Positions 4,279 to 40,109 of a stretch of 64,000 nucleotides of DNA are shown piece after piece. The first letter of the stretch is position 1. Each line of letters opens with the position of its first letter. Origin of the DNA: Victivallales bacterium (GTDB lineage Bacteria > Verrucomicrobiota > Lentisphaeria > Victivallales > UBA1829); NCBI GenBank assembly GCA_016285345.1, contig JAEEQN010000005.1, positions 1 through 64,000 of the forward strand. Direction: 5' to 3'. The notes under the pieces were generated by a model that saw nothing but the letters and a program-made list of their open reading frames with translations, was not told where the DNA came from and ran no database searches. The translations under genes were made by a program, and so were the position numbers.

Positions 4279-4760
4279 GGCAGACTCCCCGAGCCAGGCA
4301 GGATCCGGCGCAGCCCCTCGTACACCGCGATGGCGGTGGAGTTCGCCAGGTTCAGACTCCGGTTGAAGTTCCCCGGCATGGGGATAGTGTAAAACTGCGG
4401 CGCGTACGTGTCGTGCAGATACTGCGGCAGGCCCTTGCTTTCGCTGCCGAAGACCAGGAAGGAGCCGCGTTCGAACGGGCAGTCCCAGTAGCACTGTTTC
4501 GCCTTGGTCGAGAAGAAATACATCGGCGCTCCGGCGGCGGTTTTCAGCACGGATTCGAAATCCTCGTGGATGATGCAGTCCACATGCCGCCAGTAGTCCA
4601 TGCCCGCGCGCTTCAGATGGGCGTCGTCAAACGAAAACGAGATGGGCTTCACGAGGTGCAGACGGCATTCCGTGCAGCAGGCGATGCGCCCGATGTTCCC
4701 CGTGTTCTGGGGGATCTCGGGCGTGTGCAGGACGATGTGGAACAGCGGATCGGATGGCAT
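4275..4760 (-). CDS. trmL: tRNA (cytidine(34)-2'-O)-methyltransferase
   Basis: 161 residues, the size of TrmL (YibK), a SPOUT-fold enzyme that 2'-O-methylates the wobble base of tRNA-Leu isoacceptors using S-adenosylmethionine. Three family motifs are visible: HTPEIPQNTGNIGR near the N-terminus, LVFGSESKGLP in the middle and RSLNLANSTAIAVYE near the C-terminus, which together form the trefoil knot. A GGAG lies about 10 bases upstream of the ATG. Its stop overlaps the start of the UPF0104 gene (ATGA). It follows the Sel1 gene by 81 bp on the same strand. Confidence 0.95.
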   Translation of the reverse strand: MPSDPLFHIVLHTPEIPQNTGNIGRIACCTECRLHLVKPISFSFDDAHLKRAGMDYWRHVDCIIHEDFESVLKTAAGAPMYFFSTKAKQCYWDCPFERGSFLVFGSESKGLPQYLHDTYAPQFYTIPMPGNFNRSLNLANSTAIAVYEGLRRILPGSGSLP

Positions 4761-4841
4761 TTTATTCTATTCTCCAAAGTGGAAACGGCGCGAACACGGC
4801 CGGCCGCTTTTCTGGTTCAGTTCGTTTTCATGGTCGCGTGT

Positions 4842-6122
4842 TCACCGGTTCAGACGCCGCCGCGCCTCCACGTCGCCGTTCCGGGCGGCCTCGCGGTACA
4901 GGGCCAGCGCCTTTTCCAGATCGGCGTTGCAGCCCACGCCGTTTTCATAGCAGATGGCGAGCTGGCGCTGTGCGGCGGAATCGCCCTTGGACGCGGCGCG
5001 GTTGAACCAGAAGAACGCGGCTTTTTCGTCTTTCGCGATCGGGCCGTCCTTCTTCAGGAAGAGCATCCCGAGCTCGTACTGGGACTTCGGGTGATCGAAC
5101 TGGGCGCCGCGTGAAAAAAGCTCCGCCGCGAGCTCGGGGTCCTTGTCCATGCCGATGCCGTTCAGGTTCAGCGTCCCGAGGCGGTAAAGCGCCTCCGGGC
5201 AGTCCTCGGCGGCGGACCGTTTGTACCAGACGAGCGCATCGTCCGAGCCCTTGCCGTCGACCTCGCCCGAGGCGATCATGTCGCCGTATTTGAGCATGGC
5301 GGCGGGAAGTCCGGCCTTTGCGGCGCGTTCGTAGCACGCGAGCGCCTTTTTGGAATCCGCCTCCACATTGATCCCGAACTCATAGCAGTAGCCCATGCGG
5401 GAAAGCGCCTCCAGGTTGCCCTGGGACGCCGCCTTTTCCAGCGCCTCGATCATTTTTTTGCCGTCGGGCAAGGTGCCGAACCCGGAGAAATAGCAGTCGG
5501 CGAGCACACGCCACGCGAGGGGCGGGGCATCCGGGTGCTTCACCGCCTCGGAAACCAGCTTGAACGCCTTTTCCGCCTCCTTCGCGGACACGTCGGCACG
5601 CATGGAGATCAGGATGGAGGCCAGTTCGACCTGCGCGGGCAGATAACCGCGGTCGGCGAGCGACTGGATCATCTTGCGGCCTTTTTCGGGGTCCGGGTCC
5701 GGGACTATGGAATCCTTGTATTTGCTCCGTTCCTCGATCGTGCGGAATTCCACGCCGTTCAGCAGCACCTTGGCGTATTTGAACTCGGCCTGTTCGCACT
5801 TCTTTTCGGCCGCCTTGCGGTAGCATTCGGCGGCGGCCACCGGATTCCGGTCGACGCCGAGGCCGCGTTCCAGGCAGAATCCGTAGTTGTACATCGCCTC
5901 GGGGATCTCATCGGACGCCTTGCGATACCAGTGCGCCGCGAGCACGGGATTCGCCTTGCGCGTCTCCGTGCCGTAGAAATACTCGTTGCCGAGCGCGAAC
6001 TCTGACTTCGCATCGCCGAGCAGGGCTTTCTCGCGAAGCTCATCCTCCGCGGCGGACATGCGGACGCAAAAAACGGCGGCGCATCCGATCAGGAACAGAC
6101 AGAAAGATGTCTTGTGTCTCAT
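4842..6122 (-). CDS. Secreted Sel1-repeat (SLR) protein
   Basis: About 426 residues. The N-terminus is a signal peptide (hydrophobic core FCLFLIGCAAVFCV, likely cleavage after SAAE region), then some nine to ten Sel1-like repeats of about 36 residues, each with an A-x-x-x-Y-x-x-A-A helix pair, for example ALACYERAAKAGLPAAMLKY and ALALYREAARNGDVEARRRL. Sel1 repeats form TPR-like solenoids that scaffold protein complexes, here outside the cytoplasm. No enzymatic domain is seen. A GTG at 6125 precedes the ATG at 6122; the ATG is preferred. It starts 22 bp after the secA stop and is likely co-transcribed with secA. Confidence 0.85.
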   Translation of the reverse strand: MRHKTSFCLFLIGCAAVFCVRMSAAEDELREKALLGDAKSEFALGNEYFYGTETRKANPVLAAHWYRKASDEIPEAMYNYGFCLERGLGVDRNPVAAAECYRKAAEKKCEQAEFKYAKVLLNGVEFRTIEERSKYKDSIVPDPDPEKGRKMIQSLADRGYLPAQVELASILISMRADVSAKEAEKAFKLVSEAVKHPDAPPLAWRVLADCYFSGFGTLPDGKKMIEALEKAASQGNLEALSRMGYCYEFGINVEADSKKALACYERAAKAGLPAAMLKYGDMIASGEVDGKGSDDALVWYKRSAAEDCPEALYRLGTLNLNGIGMDKDPELAAELFSRGAQFDHPKSQYELGMLFLKKDGPIAKDEKAAFFWFNRAASKGDSAAQRQLAICYENGVGCNADLEKALALYREAARNGDVEARRRLNR

Positions 6123-6144
6123 CACGATGCACCGCCCGATGCGG

Positions 6145-9100
6145 TCACTTGCCGCAGCACTTCTTGAATTTCTTGCCGGAGCCGCAGGGACACGGGTCGT
6201 TCGGGCCGACCTTCGCTTCGTCGCGCTGGAACGGGACGCCCTGATTCGGGTCCGCCCGCTGCATCGCGGGTTCCGGGGCAGAGGCGTCGTCTTCGGCCGG
6301 AACCGTCTGCGGGGCGTCTGCCGGAGCCGGAGCCTCGGAGGATGCCACGGTGGAGCCGAGCTGGTCGACGGTCTGATGGCTGAGGATGTACTGGCGGGCG
6401 GCCGGGATGAAGCGTTCGAACGCCGCCATGTTGGTGGCGGAACGGAACAGCTTGCCGATGATCTGCTGGTCGATGTCGTTCATGAGCTGCTCGAACAGGC
6501 GGAACGCCTCGCGCTTGTACTCGACCAGCGGGTCCTTCTGCGCATAGGCGCGGAGACCGATGCTGCCGCGGAGTTCGTCCATGCTGCGGAGGTGGTCCTG
6601 CCAGCGGGAGTCGATGGCGTCGAGCACGATCTGGCGTTCGAGCCACTTCAGGCCGACCGGGTCTTCCAGGGACGCCTTCAGCTCGTACATATCGAACACT
6701 TTCTTCAGGATGCGTTCGACCATCAGCTCGGCGGCGTTCTCCGCCTGCAGGTCGACTTCCAGGTCCTGTTCGAAGAACCCGAACGGGAACGAGTAGTTCA
6801 GCCAGGCAAGGAGCAGGTCGCGGTTGTACGGGATCTTCATGTCGCCCGCGGCGGCCGCGAACGCCTCGTCCACATGACGGCCGACCTCGATCTCGATGAT
6901 GTCGTAGATCGCCTTCCGGCTGTCGTCCTTGAAGAGCGTGTCGTGGCGGAAGCCGTAGATGACCTCGCGCTGCTTGTTCATCACGTCGTCGTATTCGAGC
7001 GTGCGCTTGCGGATGGAGAAGTGGTGCTGCTCCACGCGGCGCTGCGCGGTCTCGATGGAACGGCTCAGGAGCGGATGCTGAAGCTCCTCGCCCTCCTCCA
7101 TGCCGAACTTCTCCATGATCGTCACGATGCGGTCGGAACCGAACAGGCGCATCAGGTTGTCCTCCAGCGACACGTAGAAATGCGACATGCCGGGGTCGCC
7201 CTGGCGTCCGCAGCGTCCGCGCAGCTGGCGGTCGATGCGGCGGGAGTCGTGGCGCGAACTGCCGAGGACCAGCAGGCCGCCCAGCTCTTCCACGCCGGGC
7301 TCGAGCTTGATGTCGGTGCCGCGTCCTGCCATGTTGGTGGCGACGGTCACGGCGCCGCGGCGTCCGGCGAGCGCCACGATCTCGGATTCGCGGGCGTGGT
7401 TCTTCGCGTTCAGCACGTTGTGCGGGATGTTCTTCATGAGGAGCATGCGGCTGACAAGCTCGGAGTCCTCGACGGAGATGGTGCCGAGCAGGACGGGCTG
7501 TCCGCGCTTGTGCGCCGCCTCGGTTTCCGCCACGATCGCGCGGAATTTCTCGCGCTTGGTCTTGAAGACCGTGTCGTTCACGTCCTTGCGGATGCACGGG
7601 CGGTTCGTGGGGATCACGACCACGTCGAGCTTGTAGATCTGGTGGAACTCGGTGGCCTCGGTCTCCGCCGTACCGGTCATGCCGGCGAGCTTCTTGTACA
7701 TGCGGAAATAGTTCTGGATGGTGATCGTGGCGAGCGTCTGCGTCTCGCTCTCGATCTTCACGTTTTCCTTCGCCTCGAGCGCCTGGTGCAGGCCGTCGCT
7801 GAACCGGCGGCCCGGCAGGATGCGTCCGGTGTGCTCGTCCACGATCAGGACCTTGCCCTCCATCACGACGTAGTCCACGTCCTTCTCGAAGAGGCAGTAG
7901 GCGCGCAGGAGCTGGGAGATGTTCTGGAGGCGTTCGCTCTTCTCGGCGAAGGCTTCCTGGAACGCCCGGTGGCGCTGAAGCTTGGTCTGGTAGTCCGTCT
8001 TCGGATCGTTGTCGATGTCGTGCAGCGAGTTGAGCAGATCCGGCAGCACGAACGCGTCGGGATCGTTCGGGGAAATGGTGTTGCGGCCGCGTTCCGTGAG
8101 GTCGGCCTCGTGCTGTTTCTCGTCCATGGAGAAGTACAGGTCCTCCTGCACCTCCTGGAGCATGCCGCGGTTCTGGTCGCTGCGGACGAACGACTCGTAG
8201 CGTTCCAGCTTCTTGAGGATGTCGGCGTCCTCGAGGATGCGGGCGAGCATCTTGTGGCGGGGCATGCCGAACTTGACCTGCAGGAGCTTGCGGATCGCGC
8301 CGTCGAATTCCTCGTCGGTCGCCTTGCCCTCGTCGCGGCGGTCGATCACGTCCTTCGCCTCCTTGAGCAGGCGGTCGCACAGCGATTCCTGCTTGCGGTA
8401 CAGCGCGGCCACAAACGGCTGGAGCTTGTCGAACTGGTGCGTGGAGACGTTCACCGGGCCGGAGATGATGAGCGGCGTGCGCGCCTCGTCGATGAGGATG
8501 GAGTCGACTTCGTCGACGATCACGTAGTAGTAATCGCGCTGGACAAGCTGTTCCTTGCTGGTCGCCATGCCCATGTCGCGGAGGTAGTCGAATCCGAACT
8601 CGCTGTTCGTGCCGTAGGTGATGTCGCAGGCGTACTGCTCCTTGCGCTGGGCGGAGTGCATGGAGTTCTGGATGCAGCCGACCGTGAGGCCGAGGAACTC
8701 GAACACGCGGCCGACCCACTGGGAGTCGCGGCGCGCAAGGTAGTCGTTCACGGTGACGAGCTGGCAGTTGTGGCCGGAAAGCGCGTTCAGGTACAGCGGC
8801 ATGGTGGCGACGAGCGTCTTGCCTTCGCCGGTGGCCATTTCCGCGATCTTGCCCTGATGGAGCACGATGCCGCCGATGATCTGCACGTCGAACGGGATCA
8901 TGTCCCACACGAGGTCGTGGCCGCAGACTTCGTAGGTGCGCCCGACCATGCGGCGGCAGGCGTTCTTCACGACGGCGAACGCCTCGCACATCATGGAGTC
9001 GAGCGATTCGCCCTTGGCGTAGCGGTCCTTGAACTCCTGCGTTTTGGCTTTCAGCTGCTCGTCGGTGAGCGACTGATACGATTCCTCCAGGGCGTTGATC

Positions 9101-31833: not shown

Positions 31834-33111
31834 ATGGCTTCTTCAGGACAAACCATCATAACCGGCATTGAGTTCGGCACGGACAAGATCTGCGCCGTTC
31901 ACGGCGTGCCGGACGAAAACGGGAACATCGAGGTGCTTTCCTTCGCCTCGCAGCCCAGCAGAAACTCCGTCGTCAAGGGCACGATCGTCGACCAGAACGC
32001 CGCCCTGAACATCCTCAAATCCGTGCTCGACGAATCGGAAAAAGGGCTCGGCAGGTTCAGCCGCTCCGAACAGCATGTCTATTTCCTGGTCAACGGCATG
32101 CACGTCAGCTCCCGCTTCGGCGAGGGAACCGTGCTGAACTACAACGAAGACAAGAAGATCACCGCGGCGCACGTGCAGAAGGCGATCGAAAGCGCGAAGA
32201 ACCTGGCTGTCTCGACCGACCTCGTGAACATTCAGGTCTACGACTCCTCCTTCCTGCTCGACGGCACGAAACGCACGTTCAACCCCATCGGCAGCCTCGC
32301 CGAAAAGCTCACCGCCGTCATCCATATCGTCTTCGCCGACAAGAAGCGCATCGACATGGCGCAGACCATCCTCCGCGAGCTCGGATTCGAGTCCGGCTAC
32401 CCGGTCTTCGTCCCGCTCGCCGACGCGTACGGCGTGCCGACGCAGGACGAACGCAGCCAGGGCACGCTGATCTTCGACTACGGCGCGGGCGTCTGCTCCT
32501 ACGTACTGCTCTACAGGGAGGGCGTCCTCCTGAGCGGGTCCATCCCGGTCGGCGTGAACAACGTCGCGAACGACCTCGCCGTGGCGCTGGAACTTCCGTA
32601 CGAGTTCTGCCAGAAATTCCTGCGCGAATCGAAGCTGGAGACGCTGCGCGGCGAGGGCAAGAACTATATCGAATACAAGGTTTCCGCCGGCGGCTCCGAA
32701 AAGATCCGCCGCATCCCGCTCGACTCCTTCGAAAAAGTCATCGACCTGCGCCAGCGCGAGACCTTCAACCTCCTCAAAAGCGAACTCGAACGCACCGGCA
32801 CCTTCACCTACCTCCGCAACGGCGTCGTCATGACCGGAGGCGGCTCCATGATCGAATCCGCGCCCGCCACCATGGCGAACGTCATGAACGTCCCCGTCCG
32901 CTGCGGCGAGGCCATGAACGTGACCGGCGCGCTGTCGGCGTTCCGCAGCCCCATGCCGTGCTACTCCGCCATCCTCGGCCTCATCAAGCACGCCGCCGCC
33001 CTCGAGGAGGATTCCCCCTCGTCCGGCTCCGGCCTCGGCCGCACCATGGTCCACGCCACCGACCAGTTCCTGCAGGGACTGAAAAACCTGGGAAAGGCAC
33101 TCAAGATATGA
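31834..33111 (+). CDS. ftsA: Cell division protein FtsA
   Basis: 425 residues, actin-like fold that ties the FtsZ ring to the inner membrane. Phosphate-1 region TGIEFGTDKICAVHG, phosphate-2 region TLIFDYGAGVCSYVLL, adenosine region VVMTGGGSMIESA, and SHS2 (1C) domain between about 85 and 165. The C-terminus FLQGLKNLGKALKI is a short amphipathic membrane-binding helix, as in FtsA. AGAAGGGA lies upstream of the ATG. Its TGA overlaps the ATG of ftsZ, so translation is coupled. Confidence 0.93.
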   Translation: MASSGQTIITGIEFGTDKICAVHGVPDENGNIEVLSFASQPSRNSVVKGTIVDQNAALNILKSVLDESEKGLGRFSRSEQHVYFLVNGMHVSSRFGEGTVLNYNEDKKITAAHVQKAIESAKNLAVSTDLVNIQVYDSSFLLDGTKRTFNPIGSLAEKLTAVIHIVFADKKRIDMAQTILRELGFESGYPVFVPLADAYGVPTQDERSQGTLIFDYGAGVCSYVLLYREGVLLSGSIPVGVNNVANDLAVALELPYEFCQKFLRESKLETLRGEGKNYIEYKVSAGGSEKIRRIPLDSFEKVIDLRQRETFNLLKSELERTGTFTYLRNGVVMTGGGSMIESAPATMANVMNVPVRCGEAMNVTGALSAFRSPMPCYSAILGLIKHAAALEEDSPSSGSGLGRTMVHATDQFLQGLKNLGKALKI

Positions 33112-34355
33112 CCGAACAGAACGCAACCTCGCCCGCCGGCCTCTCCCGGGCTCCCGTCGGCAACGGAAAAGCGCTCGTCGTCGGACTCGGCGGCTGCGGC
33201 ATCCGCATCCTCGAATTCCTACGCGCCAACCCCCGCGCGAAATGGCTCGTCACGCTCGCGGTCGACACCGACGGCGGCGTCCTTGCCGGGACACGCGCCG
33301 ACGCCGTCATCAACGCCTCCGCCGACTGGAACTCGAAATCCTGCGCCGGATGCGGCGGCGACATCATCCGCGGCGAACGCGCCGTCTCCCACGAACGCGC
33401 CAACCTGAAACAGCACGTCCGCGGCTTCTCCCTCATGATCGTGACCGGCGGACTCGGCGGCGGCACGGCCACGGGCGGCGTCCGCACGCTCGCCAGCGTC
33501 GCCCGCGAGGAGGGCATCCCGACCGTCTTCCTGCTCACCATGCCGTTCTCGTTCGAGGCGCATTCCCGCCGAAAGAACGCCGAGGACTGCCTCCGCGAGA
33601 TCCTCCCGGTCGCCGACGTCGTCCTCACGATGCCGAACGACCTGCTCTTCAGCAAACTCCCGCCCGACACGCCCGCCGAAAACGCGTTCGCGACCTCCGC
33701 GTACGAAATGGCGTCCACCGTCGTCGGGATCGCCTCGGTCCTGCGCTGCCGCGACCTCATCGGCACCGATTTCGCCACCTTTATGCGCGCCCTCCACAAA
33801 CGCCGCGCCTCCTGCGGCATCGGCGTCGGCGTCGCGGAGAATTCCGACGGACTCGACCGCTGCGCCCTCGCCCTCACGCGCATGCTCGATTCGCCGTTCC
33901 TCGGCGGAAACGACGCCATGAAACGCGCCGACGCCGCGATCGTCACCCTGACCGGCGGACCCGACCTGGAGCTGGGCGAACTGAAACGTACCCTCGAGCT
34001 CGCCGCGGGCGTCCTGCCGAAGAACGTCGAACTCCTCTCCGGCGCGAACGTCTGCGACGAGGCCGCGGGCTCCGTACAGATGACCGCCGTCATCTTCCAG
34101 TACGCCCCCGAATCCAAGCCCGCTCCCGTGCCCCGGCGCACCCCGGCGCCCGCTCCGGCCGCCGCGCCAGCCGCCTCCGACGATCTCCCGCTGCCCTTCT
34201 CCGCCGCGTCGAACAACGTCGAGGAGGTCGAGCTCGGCCTCCAGAGCTACGACAAGGGCGTCTTCGAGAAACTCCCCGCCGTGCGCTTCCGCGAGGAGGA
34301 CCTCGACATCCCGACCTACCAGCGCCGCAACATCCGCATCGACAAAGGGAGCTGA
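33108..34355 (+). CDS. ftsZ: Divergent tubulin-like cell division protein FtsZ
   Basis: 415 residues from ATG 33108, which overlaps the ftsA stop. The glycine-rich nucleotide motif reads TGGLGGGTATGG (114-124), the N-terminal VVGLGGCGIRIL and the PND box MPNDLLF are present, and the C-terminus has DLDIPTYQRR, the FtsA-binding tail type of FtsZ, after an Ala/Pro linker. The T7 synergy loop is LIGTDFAT (217-224) where E. coli has MNVDFAD: the first Asp is kept, the second catalytic Asp is Thr, and Asn is Gly. GTPase activity may therefore be altered. The ftsA partner makes the assignment secure. Confidence 0.9.
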   Translation: MTEQNATSPAGLSRAPVGNGKALVVGLGGCGIRILEFLRANPRAKWLVTLAVDTDGGVLAGTRADAVINASADWNSKSCAGCGGDIIRGERAVSHERANLKQHVRGFSLMIVTGGLGGGTATGGVRTLASVAREEGIPTVFLLTMPFSFEAHSRRKNAEDCLREILPVADVVLTMPNDLLFSKLPPDTPAENAFATSAYEMASTVVGIASVLRCRDLIGTDFATFMRALHKRRASCGIGVGVAENSDGLDRCALALTRMLDSPFLGGNDAMKRADAAIVTLTGGPDLELGELKRTLELAAGVLPKNVELLSGANVCDEAAGSVQMTAVIFQYAPESKPAPVPRRTPAPAPAAAPAASDDLPLPFSAASNNVEEVELGLQSYDKGVFEKLPAVRFREEDLDIPTYQRRNIRIDKGS

Positions 34356-38942: not shown

Positions 38943-40109
38943 TCAGAACCCTCCGAAACCGCCCATGCCGCCGCCGCCGAAGCCTCCGGCACCGCCTCCG
39001 AAGCCTCCGGCACCGCCGCCAAAACCACCGCCGCCGAAGTCCATGCCGCCGCCAAAGCCACCAGCTCCGCCTCCGAAGCCTCCGGCACCTCCACCGAAGT
39101 CCATGCCACCGCCAAAGCCGCCCATACCGCCGCCGAAGTCCATGCCGCCGCCAAAGCCGCCCATGCCCATATCTCCGAATCCCCCCATTCCAAATCCGCC
39201 CATGCCGCCGAAGCCGCCCATGCCGAAACCGCCCATGCCAAAGCCGCCCATCGCGTTGTTTCCGGTCGTATTCTGCATGGAGAGTTCGATCGTTTCCTGA
39301 TTGCGTGTGAGTGTGGCGGTCGAACGTGTCACGGCCGCGAGCGTGTAGCCGTTCGGAAGCGTTTCGCCGACGCGGAAATACTGCTTATTGGAATTGGACG
39401 CGTTCGCGGTCGCCGTGATGCCGTCCGCGGACAGTCCGTCACGCCCCATGGCGCGCTGCTGATTCTGGTTTTGCAGGAGCTCAATCTGTTCATTGGAACG
39501 CGCCAGGCGCTGACGGAGCAGATCGGTCTGCTGTGCCGTCACGCCGGGGCTCTGCTGCAGCGCCTGAAGCAGGGAGGCCAGTTCCGCACGGTTCTCGAGC
39601 GCCTGCTGCATCTGCTGTTCCTGCGCCGCCGCAAGCTCCTCGGCGTTGGGCGTGTTATTGTTCCGGTTGTTATTGTTGTTGCGTCCGGGCTGCTGCCACA
39701 TGTTCATCATCTGCATGCCGCGCTGGAGGATGATCGCTCCGGCGACTCTGCCGATGGTGAATGTGCCGACGAGCGTCATGTCGCCGCGGTTGACCGGCAT
39801 GGCCGCCATTCTGTTGTTGTTCGCGGTCGCCTTCGGGGCGCGTTCGGGGTCGAAGATGTTCAGAGCCACGGTCGTCGCGACCTGTTTGTCCGTCGACATG
39901 GGCACAGGCGCGGGATTGAACCCGAATCCGAATTGCGGAAACGTCTGCTGCGCCGTGACGGGCCGCGGCTGCGGCGCCGATGCGCGGCGTTCTTTCTTTA
40001 CCGATGTCGCCACTTCGGCTTCCGCCGTTGGCTCGCTCAGCCATTCGTATCCGTAAAACGCGGCAAAAGCCGCCAGGATCAGATTGGCACAGATCAGGAT
40101 GGTTCTCAT
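38943..40109 (-). CDS. GspC/PulC-like pilus or secretion protein with Asn/Gln insert and Gly-Phe-rich tail
   Basis: 388 residues. One N-terminal membrane helix (LICANLILAAFAAFYGY), a NIF motif (VALNIFDPERAP), then two halves of a GspC-type HR beta domain: GDMTLVGTFTIGRVAGAIIL (110-128) and YFRVGETLPNGYTLAAVTRS (244-263) with TLTRNQETIELSM. Between them is an Asn/Gln-rich and coiled-coil-like insert of about 115 residues. Residues 286-388 are a low-complexity tail of MGGFGGG and MDFGGG repeats. Resembles the inner-membrane component that aligns a type II secretion or pilus machine, but no other such gene is near. AAGGAG precedes the ATG. Confidence 0.65.
   Translation of the reverse strand: MRTILICANLILAAFAAFYGYEWLSEPTAEAEVATSVKKERRASAPQPRPVTAQQTFPQFGFGFNPAPVPMSTDKQVATTVALNIFDPERAPKATANNNRMAAMPVNRGDMTLVGTFTIGRVAGAIILQRGMQMMNMWQQPGRNNNNNRNNNTPNAEELAAAQEQQMQQALENRAELASLLQALQQSPGVTAQQTDLLRQRLARSNEQIELLQNQNQQRAMGRDGLSADGITATANASNSNKQYFRVGETLPNGYTLAAVTRSTATLTRNQETIELSMQNTTGNNAMGGFGMGGFGMGGFGGMGGFGMGGFGDMGMGGFGGGMDFGGGMGGFGGGMDFGGGAGGFGGGAGGFGGGMDFGGGGFGGGAGGFGGGAGGFGGGGMGGFGGF

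Follow-up and report, generated by a model that had tools for sequence, protein, structure and literature searches.

Loss of one T7-loop carboxylate in a Lentisphaeria FtsZ as part of a tendency across Verrucomicrobiota

The FtsZ encoded in the window (the whole stretch of DNA analysed, 64,000 nucleotides) retained the first of the two aspartates of the T7 (synergy) loop, and the second was replaced by threonine. This state is not peculiar to the source genome, a rumen Lentisphaeria MAG that is 83% complete: a missing T7 acid is a tendency of the whole phylum, and about three quarters of the sampled Verrucomicrobiota FtsZs lacked one or both acids. As judged from the aligned sequences, either T7 carboxylate may be lost across Verrucomicrobiota, rarely both. 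For the window protein we favor, with somewhat more belief than doubt, the interpretation that it is a genuine FtsZ whose inter-subunit GTPase site is left with a single T7 carboxylate and whose GTP hydrolysis is slow.

The ftsZ gene (33108..34355, + strand) is an open reading frame with an ATG start and encodes a divergent FtsZ of 415 aa with Tubulin and FtsZ_C domains, a linker and a C-terminal tail. The ftsA gene (31834..33111, +, 425 aa; TIGR01174 189.6 bits, cut-off 175.85) lies directly upstream, and its stop codon overlaps the ftsZ start in an ATGA (33108..33111, +), which agrees with the translational coupling noted in the preliminary description. By family comparison, the tail is of the extended Lentisphaeria type (34248..34328, +), running from YDKGVFEK to EDLDIPTYQRR, and its FtsA-binding part (CTT), DLDIPTYQRR, was intact as had been claimed. 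The CTT was present in 33/34 FtsZs of family f1 and was combined with GIF/GVF in 28/34, and ftsA was found in 35/36 family genomes. Elsewhere in the window, a 388-aa protein with a long Gly/Phe/Met-rich C-terminal repeat, GGFGMGGFGGGMDFGGG, is encoded at 38943-40109 (-).

The identification as FtsZ, made earlier from the letters, was supported by the intact 415-aa frame and by scores of 76.3 bits with Pfam Tubulin (PF00091, cut-off 33) and 31.8 bits with FtsZ_C (PF12327, curated cut-off 27). The best phmmer match was B. subtilis FtsZ (2vam, 1.7e-31). An AF2 model built on an alignment of 13 sequences (mean pLDDT 68, pTM 0.69) matched FtsZ crystal structures with Z of 34-39 over about 300-310 residues at an rmsd of 2.4-3.6, which indicated an FtsZ fold over both domains. 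The NCBIfam equivalog TIGR00065 gave 143.4 bits, below its cut-off of 295. This cut-off is unsuited to Verrucomicrobiota, because 294 of 319 genomes of the phylum miss it as well; given these misses, automatic annotation in the phylum may leave ftsZ unnamed. A second ftsZ, for which a search had been proposed, was not found by PF00091, which had a single match in the 83%-complete genome, and 35/36 family genomes had exactly one PF00091 match. The congener G103 lacked ftsZ and also ftsA; since ftsA is missing too, a contig gap is likelier than gene loss. As far as can be seen, the window protein is the genuine and only FtsZ of the organism.

The T7 loop (residues 217-224, 33756..33779, +) reads LIGTDFAT and is encoded by CTC ATC GGC ACC GAT TTC GCC ACC. 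The codons, together with gap-free alignments to B. subtilis FtsZ (phmmer) and E. coli FtsZ (182-sequence MAFFT L-INS-i), confirmed that Asp209 is kept, Asp212 has become Thr and Asn207 has become Gly (E. coli numbering, Ec). D221 (33768..33770, +) corresponds to Ec D209, T224 (33777..33779, +) to the missing second carboxylate Ec D212, and G219 (33762..33764, +) to Ec N207, whose counterpart in S. aureus FtsZ serves as K+ and Mg-water ligand (PMC8936486). This placement rests on the gap-free alignment; in the AF2 model, residues 215-219 of the loop had pLDDT below 50, and the structural aligner yields ranges only. The set N207, D209 and D212 is therefore G, D and T in the window FtsZ, and no Asp or Glu stood at position 212 in the gap-free alignments. 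The alignment of the phylum at this loop, which had been suggested as a check, also revealed no other acid at 212 in this protein and showed that the loss is widespread.

The nucleotide motif had been called intact as well, and this held for one part of the site. The T4 phosphate loop GLGGGTATG (33450..33476, +) was retained, with Ec G109 changed to Ala (A121), and so were its glycines, E150 (Ec E138) and R154 (Ec R142, the arginine finger) in T5 (33555..33569, +), Ec D45 and P134. The claim failed for Ec N24, which contacts the nucleotide from loop T1 / helix H1 and is R33 here (33204..33206, +), for Q47 of the K+ site, now G57 (33276..33278, +), and for N186-D187 of loop T6, now A198-Y199 (33699..33704, +); furthermore, Ec N43 was replaced by D53. 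We take Ec N186 and D187 to be the residues that recognize guanine. In S. aureus FtsZ, loop T6 contributes to guanine binding, N25 contacts GDP, and the K+ site is made up of N208 (Ec N207) and Q48 (Ec Q47) (PMC8936486). In the window FtsZ, the phosphate and ribose contacts remain, while the K+ site and the expected guanine contacts are lost. Judged by the S. aureus roles, the protein still has the catalytic acid that moves, as well as the arginine finger, and lacks the static acid, the K+ site and the contacts expected to recognize the base. Family-wide, D209, D45, E138, the T4 glycines and R/K142 were conserved, and the guanine contacts were lost.

Thr224 was identical in close congeners from independent metagenomes, with the codons ACC, ACT and ACG. 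The dN/dS (omega) of ftsZ within the genus was 0.08-0.27, similar to 0.08-0.32 for ftsA; the pN/pS of the FtsZ core was about 0.15-0.25, and the T7 stretch had a pN of 0-0.03 compared with a pS of 0.38-0.47. These results indicated that Thr224 is kept by purifying selection in the genus and is not drifting. Across the family, position 212 was variable (T/G/E/D/A/S/V), and D209 was present in 33/34 FtsZs. The congener G076 (L006) has lost both acids, its T7 reading GTNVATF. D216 (Ec 204) was invariant among close congeners; in other members of the family this position was occupied by N/K/E/D/T/G/V/Q. A fragment sharing 93% identity with the window FtsZ was also observed at 9-461 of L042, a contig binned as Ruminococcaceae RUG13829 and probably mis-binned.

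The sample of 208 Verrucomicrobiota FtsZs comprised 34 from the family, 43 from the rest of the order, 7 from the class (those with both T7 positions aligned) and 124 from elsewhere in the phylum. An acid (D/E) stood at both positions in 55, only at 209 in 105, only at 212 in 43 and at neither in 5; within the family, the respective numbers were 8, 25, 0 and 1. The preliminary description had presented the loss as a feature of a single protein, which these counts do not bear out, and the loss is more interesting as a phylum-wide pattern. In Bacteroidota, the sole control phylum (30 top-scoring and then 20 lower-scoring sequences), both acids were present in 50/50 FtsZs. An Odoribacteraceae MAG outside this control sample (L043) carries a tandem ftsZ pair after ftsA, at 4710-5981 and 5994-7175. 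The T7 of the first is NINLPN, with both acids lost, and the second has NVDYAD and an altered T5, PSRLDGPER; the two look complementary, reminiscent of alpha/beta tubulin. On a Verrucomicrobiota FtsZ tree inferred with the T7 columns excluded, at least 18 changes of state occurred at position 209 and at least 20 at 212, and sister lineages carried opposite acids, as in SAGFSDF beside NADFSAF.

The association between the two acids gave a Fisher p of 4e-12 over the 208 FtsZs (uncorrected), and the Pagel test of dependent versus independent change gave LR 13.6 and p 0.0085. When independent losses were simulated on the tree, a median of 32 and a mean of 45 sequences had neither acid, compared with the 5 observed (P 0.013-0.019). 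The second acid was estimated to be lost 3-4 times more slowly than the first, on a single-gene tree with poorly determined rates. The Pagel p was 0.028 after the most divergent clades were dropped and 0.073 when Asp only was counted, with the same direction in all variants, and the independent-pairs test gave 4.7 vs 0.9 in the expected direction from too few pairs. Since double loss is rarer than independent losses predict, one T7 carboxylate seems to be selected for.

Shorter FtsZs were found within the class as well, in family f8, where the open reading frames are about 250-370 aa from stop to stop (G083, G335, G266, G327, G330, G400, G395 and G278; truncated genes at L310 1432-2334 in G083 and in L312, L314-L318 and L320). 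They matched the FtsZ profile in two stretches only, the nucleotide domain and the final 50 residues, with nothing between; the whole T7/C-terminal domain is deleted and the FtsA-binding tail kept. The G083 protein scored 54 bits with Tubulin, lacked FtsZ_C and ended in LDVPTFQRRGIGIDRG. The truncated ftsZ adjoins ftsA in G083 and G278, where the loci were read, and by coordinates in G400, G330, G327, G266 and G395. FtsZ remnants without the T4 GGGT that retained a DIPTFQR tail were seen in L319 (G315) and L320 (G278). In addition to FtsZ, f8 genomes encode members of a distinct FtsZ/tubulin-like family (L356 814-1911 (-), L324, L328); these proteins have about 365-435 aa and a GGGTGNG motif, matched Pfam Tubulin weakly and had no NCBIfam match.

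In f9/g105 (G281, G298 and G381, assembled in 2, 3 and 80 contigs, respectively), the ftsA-like gene scored 141-150 bits, below the cut-off; no ftsZ adjoined it (L338-L340), and the genomes held only a remote tubulin-like protein. These three related, mostly near-complete genomes are candidates for FtsZ-less Lentisphaeria. Together, the window, f8 and f9 suggest a graded loss of the FtsZ GTPase with the FtsA-binding tail kept. The proposed series leads from the loss of one acid (window) through the loss of both (G076) and of the T7/C-terminal domain (f8) to genomes with an ftsA-like gene and no recognisable FtsZ (f9, g105), its order being an interpretation rather than a demonstrated sequence of events. 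Only tentatively do we propose that Verrucomicrobiota, and Lentisphaeria above all, are dismantling the FtsZ GTPase stepwise with the gene still in use, FtsZ becoming an FtsA-tethered scaffold, an intermediate toward division without FtsZ as in the sister phyla Planctomycetota and Chlamydiota.

In transition-state structures of the S. aureus filament, D210 (Ec D209) swings and places the catalytic water, while D213 (Ec D212) is static, holds the water and forms a bridge with R143 (Ec R142) (PMC8936486). Because the retained acid corresponds to the swinging one, D221 is the residue that would activate hydrolysis of the nucleotide carried by the adjacent subunit, presumably with the help of R154; the hydroxyl of Thr224 would at most hold water. 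From such a single-carboxylate site, slow, K+-independent hydrolysis that is less strict on the base would follow, as would a slow-turning Z-ring, and division would also rest on the conserved FtsA-binding tail. A slower GTPase, anticipated in the preliminary description, is the effect expected by analogy with E. coli FtsZ D212A, which keeps 7% of wild-type activity (cited in PMC8142252). In S. aureus, D213N and N208L (Ec N207) abolish assembly (PMC8936486). Given D212A at 7% and a D213N that does not assemble, compensating changes elsewhere must be supposed, and compensation for the lost D212 is assumed here. Stable filaments, also suggested in the preliminary description, are possible by analogy with tubulin K254; they do not follow from the T7 change, because the S. 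aureus mutants lose assembly instead of being stabilised. The either-or distribution of the acids in the phylum, the Bacteroidota control with both acids throughout, the presence of D209 in 33/34 family FtsZs, the purifying selection on T7, the swinging role of the S. aureus counterpart of D221 and the FtsZ-like fold of the model support the single-carboxylate reading. Against it stand G076, whose loss of both acids means that not even D221 is indispensable in the genus, the lost guanine contacts, the weaker p of the either-or variants and the low pLDDT of the modelled loop.

It is rather unlikely that the interface is dead, with no GTP hydrolysis, static filaments that are GTP-locked or nucleotide-independent, and FtsZ serving as a scaffold. 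Position 212 corresponds to tubulin E254/K254. In beta-tubulin, K254 blocks hydrolysis and keeps the GTP of alpha-tubulin unhydrolysed (PMC13394414), and the existence of G076 without either acid and the loss of the base and K+ contacts also point this way. However, the family conserves D209, D45, E138, the T4 glycines and R/K142, which a scaffold that is nucleotide-free or does not hydrolyse would not need, FtsZs with neither acid are rare in the phylum, and the S. aureus D213N protein fails to assemble at all. That another residue, such as D216 or an acidic one from the adjacent subunit, has taken over the role of D212 with normal activity is improbable. The invariance of D216 among close congeners would fit, but the position varies elsewhere in the family and lies eight residues ahead of 212 in an alignment free of gaps, and T7 holds no acid after D221. 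We also give little credence to a filament-free adaptor, that is, an FtsZ acting chiefly as the tail-bearing partner of FtsA with polymerisation dispensable: the f8 proteins, with the tail kept beside ftsA, and the nearly universal tail in f1 would suit it, whereas the constrained core of the genus and a T7 nearly without amino-acid change would not. A pseudogene, assembly error or misalignment, for which only the low TIGR00065 score speaks, is hardly credible and was rejected on the joint evidence of the identical loop in congeners from independent metagenomes with synonymous Thr codons, the cut-off misses throughout the phylum and the purifying selection.

The literature treats the two T7 aspartates of FtsZ as conserved and catalytic, and altering either cripples the FtsZ of E. 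coli and S. aureus; here a textbook active site is dismantled in nature while the gene persists. Verrucomicrobiota FtsZs are among the most divergent bacterial FtsZs (PMC9871819), FtsZ is essential in Verrucomicrobium spinosum, a tractable species open to targeted mutagenesis (PMC12283558), and the division modes of the PVC superphylum have been reviewed (PMC5147048). No report of T7-aspartate loss in Verrucomicrobiota FtsZ was found in the accessible main texts of the open-access literature, and the literature search found no study of residue D212 of E. coli FtsZ in cells. A phylum in which only about a quarter of the sampled FtsZs keep both acids, and either acid can persist alone, offers many natural experiments on how much GTP hydrolysis is needed for bacterial division, and makes it testable how the PVC superphylum moved from FtsZ-driven fission to FtsZ-free division.

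Compared with known systems, the window FtsZ, here read as a single-carboxylate enzyme, shares with the canonical FtsZs of E. coli, B. subtilis and S. aureus (TIGR00065) the fold, the Tubulin and FtsZ_C domains, the T4 loop, E138, R142, D209, the CTT and the ftsA-ftsZ order. It differs from them in D212T, N207G, N24R, N186A/D187Y, Q47G and G109A, in its 24-28% identity and in scoring below the equivalog cut-off. Other Verrucomicrobiota FtsZs resemble it in the loss of one T7 carboxylate and mostly in having one ftsZ per genome, but those of f17 (INLDFATLR type) keep N24, D186 and N207, and those of f14 and f27 (INLGLDEL/VGLDDL type) lack the other acid (D209G), with D/E212 retained. The T7 of beta-tubulin likewise has a non-acidic residue, K254, at the position of Ec D212; tubulin, however, forms a heterodimer in which a second interface is active, whereas the interfaces of the window FtsZ are all identical. 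In the engineered D212A and D213N FtsZs the same position is changed, but there a single change in a canonical site is strongly impairing, while the window FtsZ carries it in a natural background with surrounding changes.
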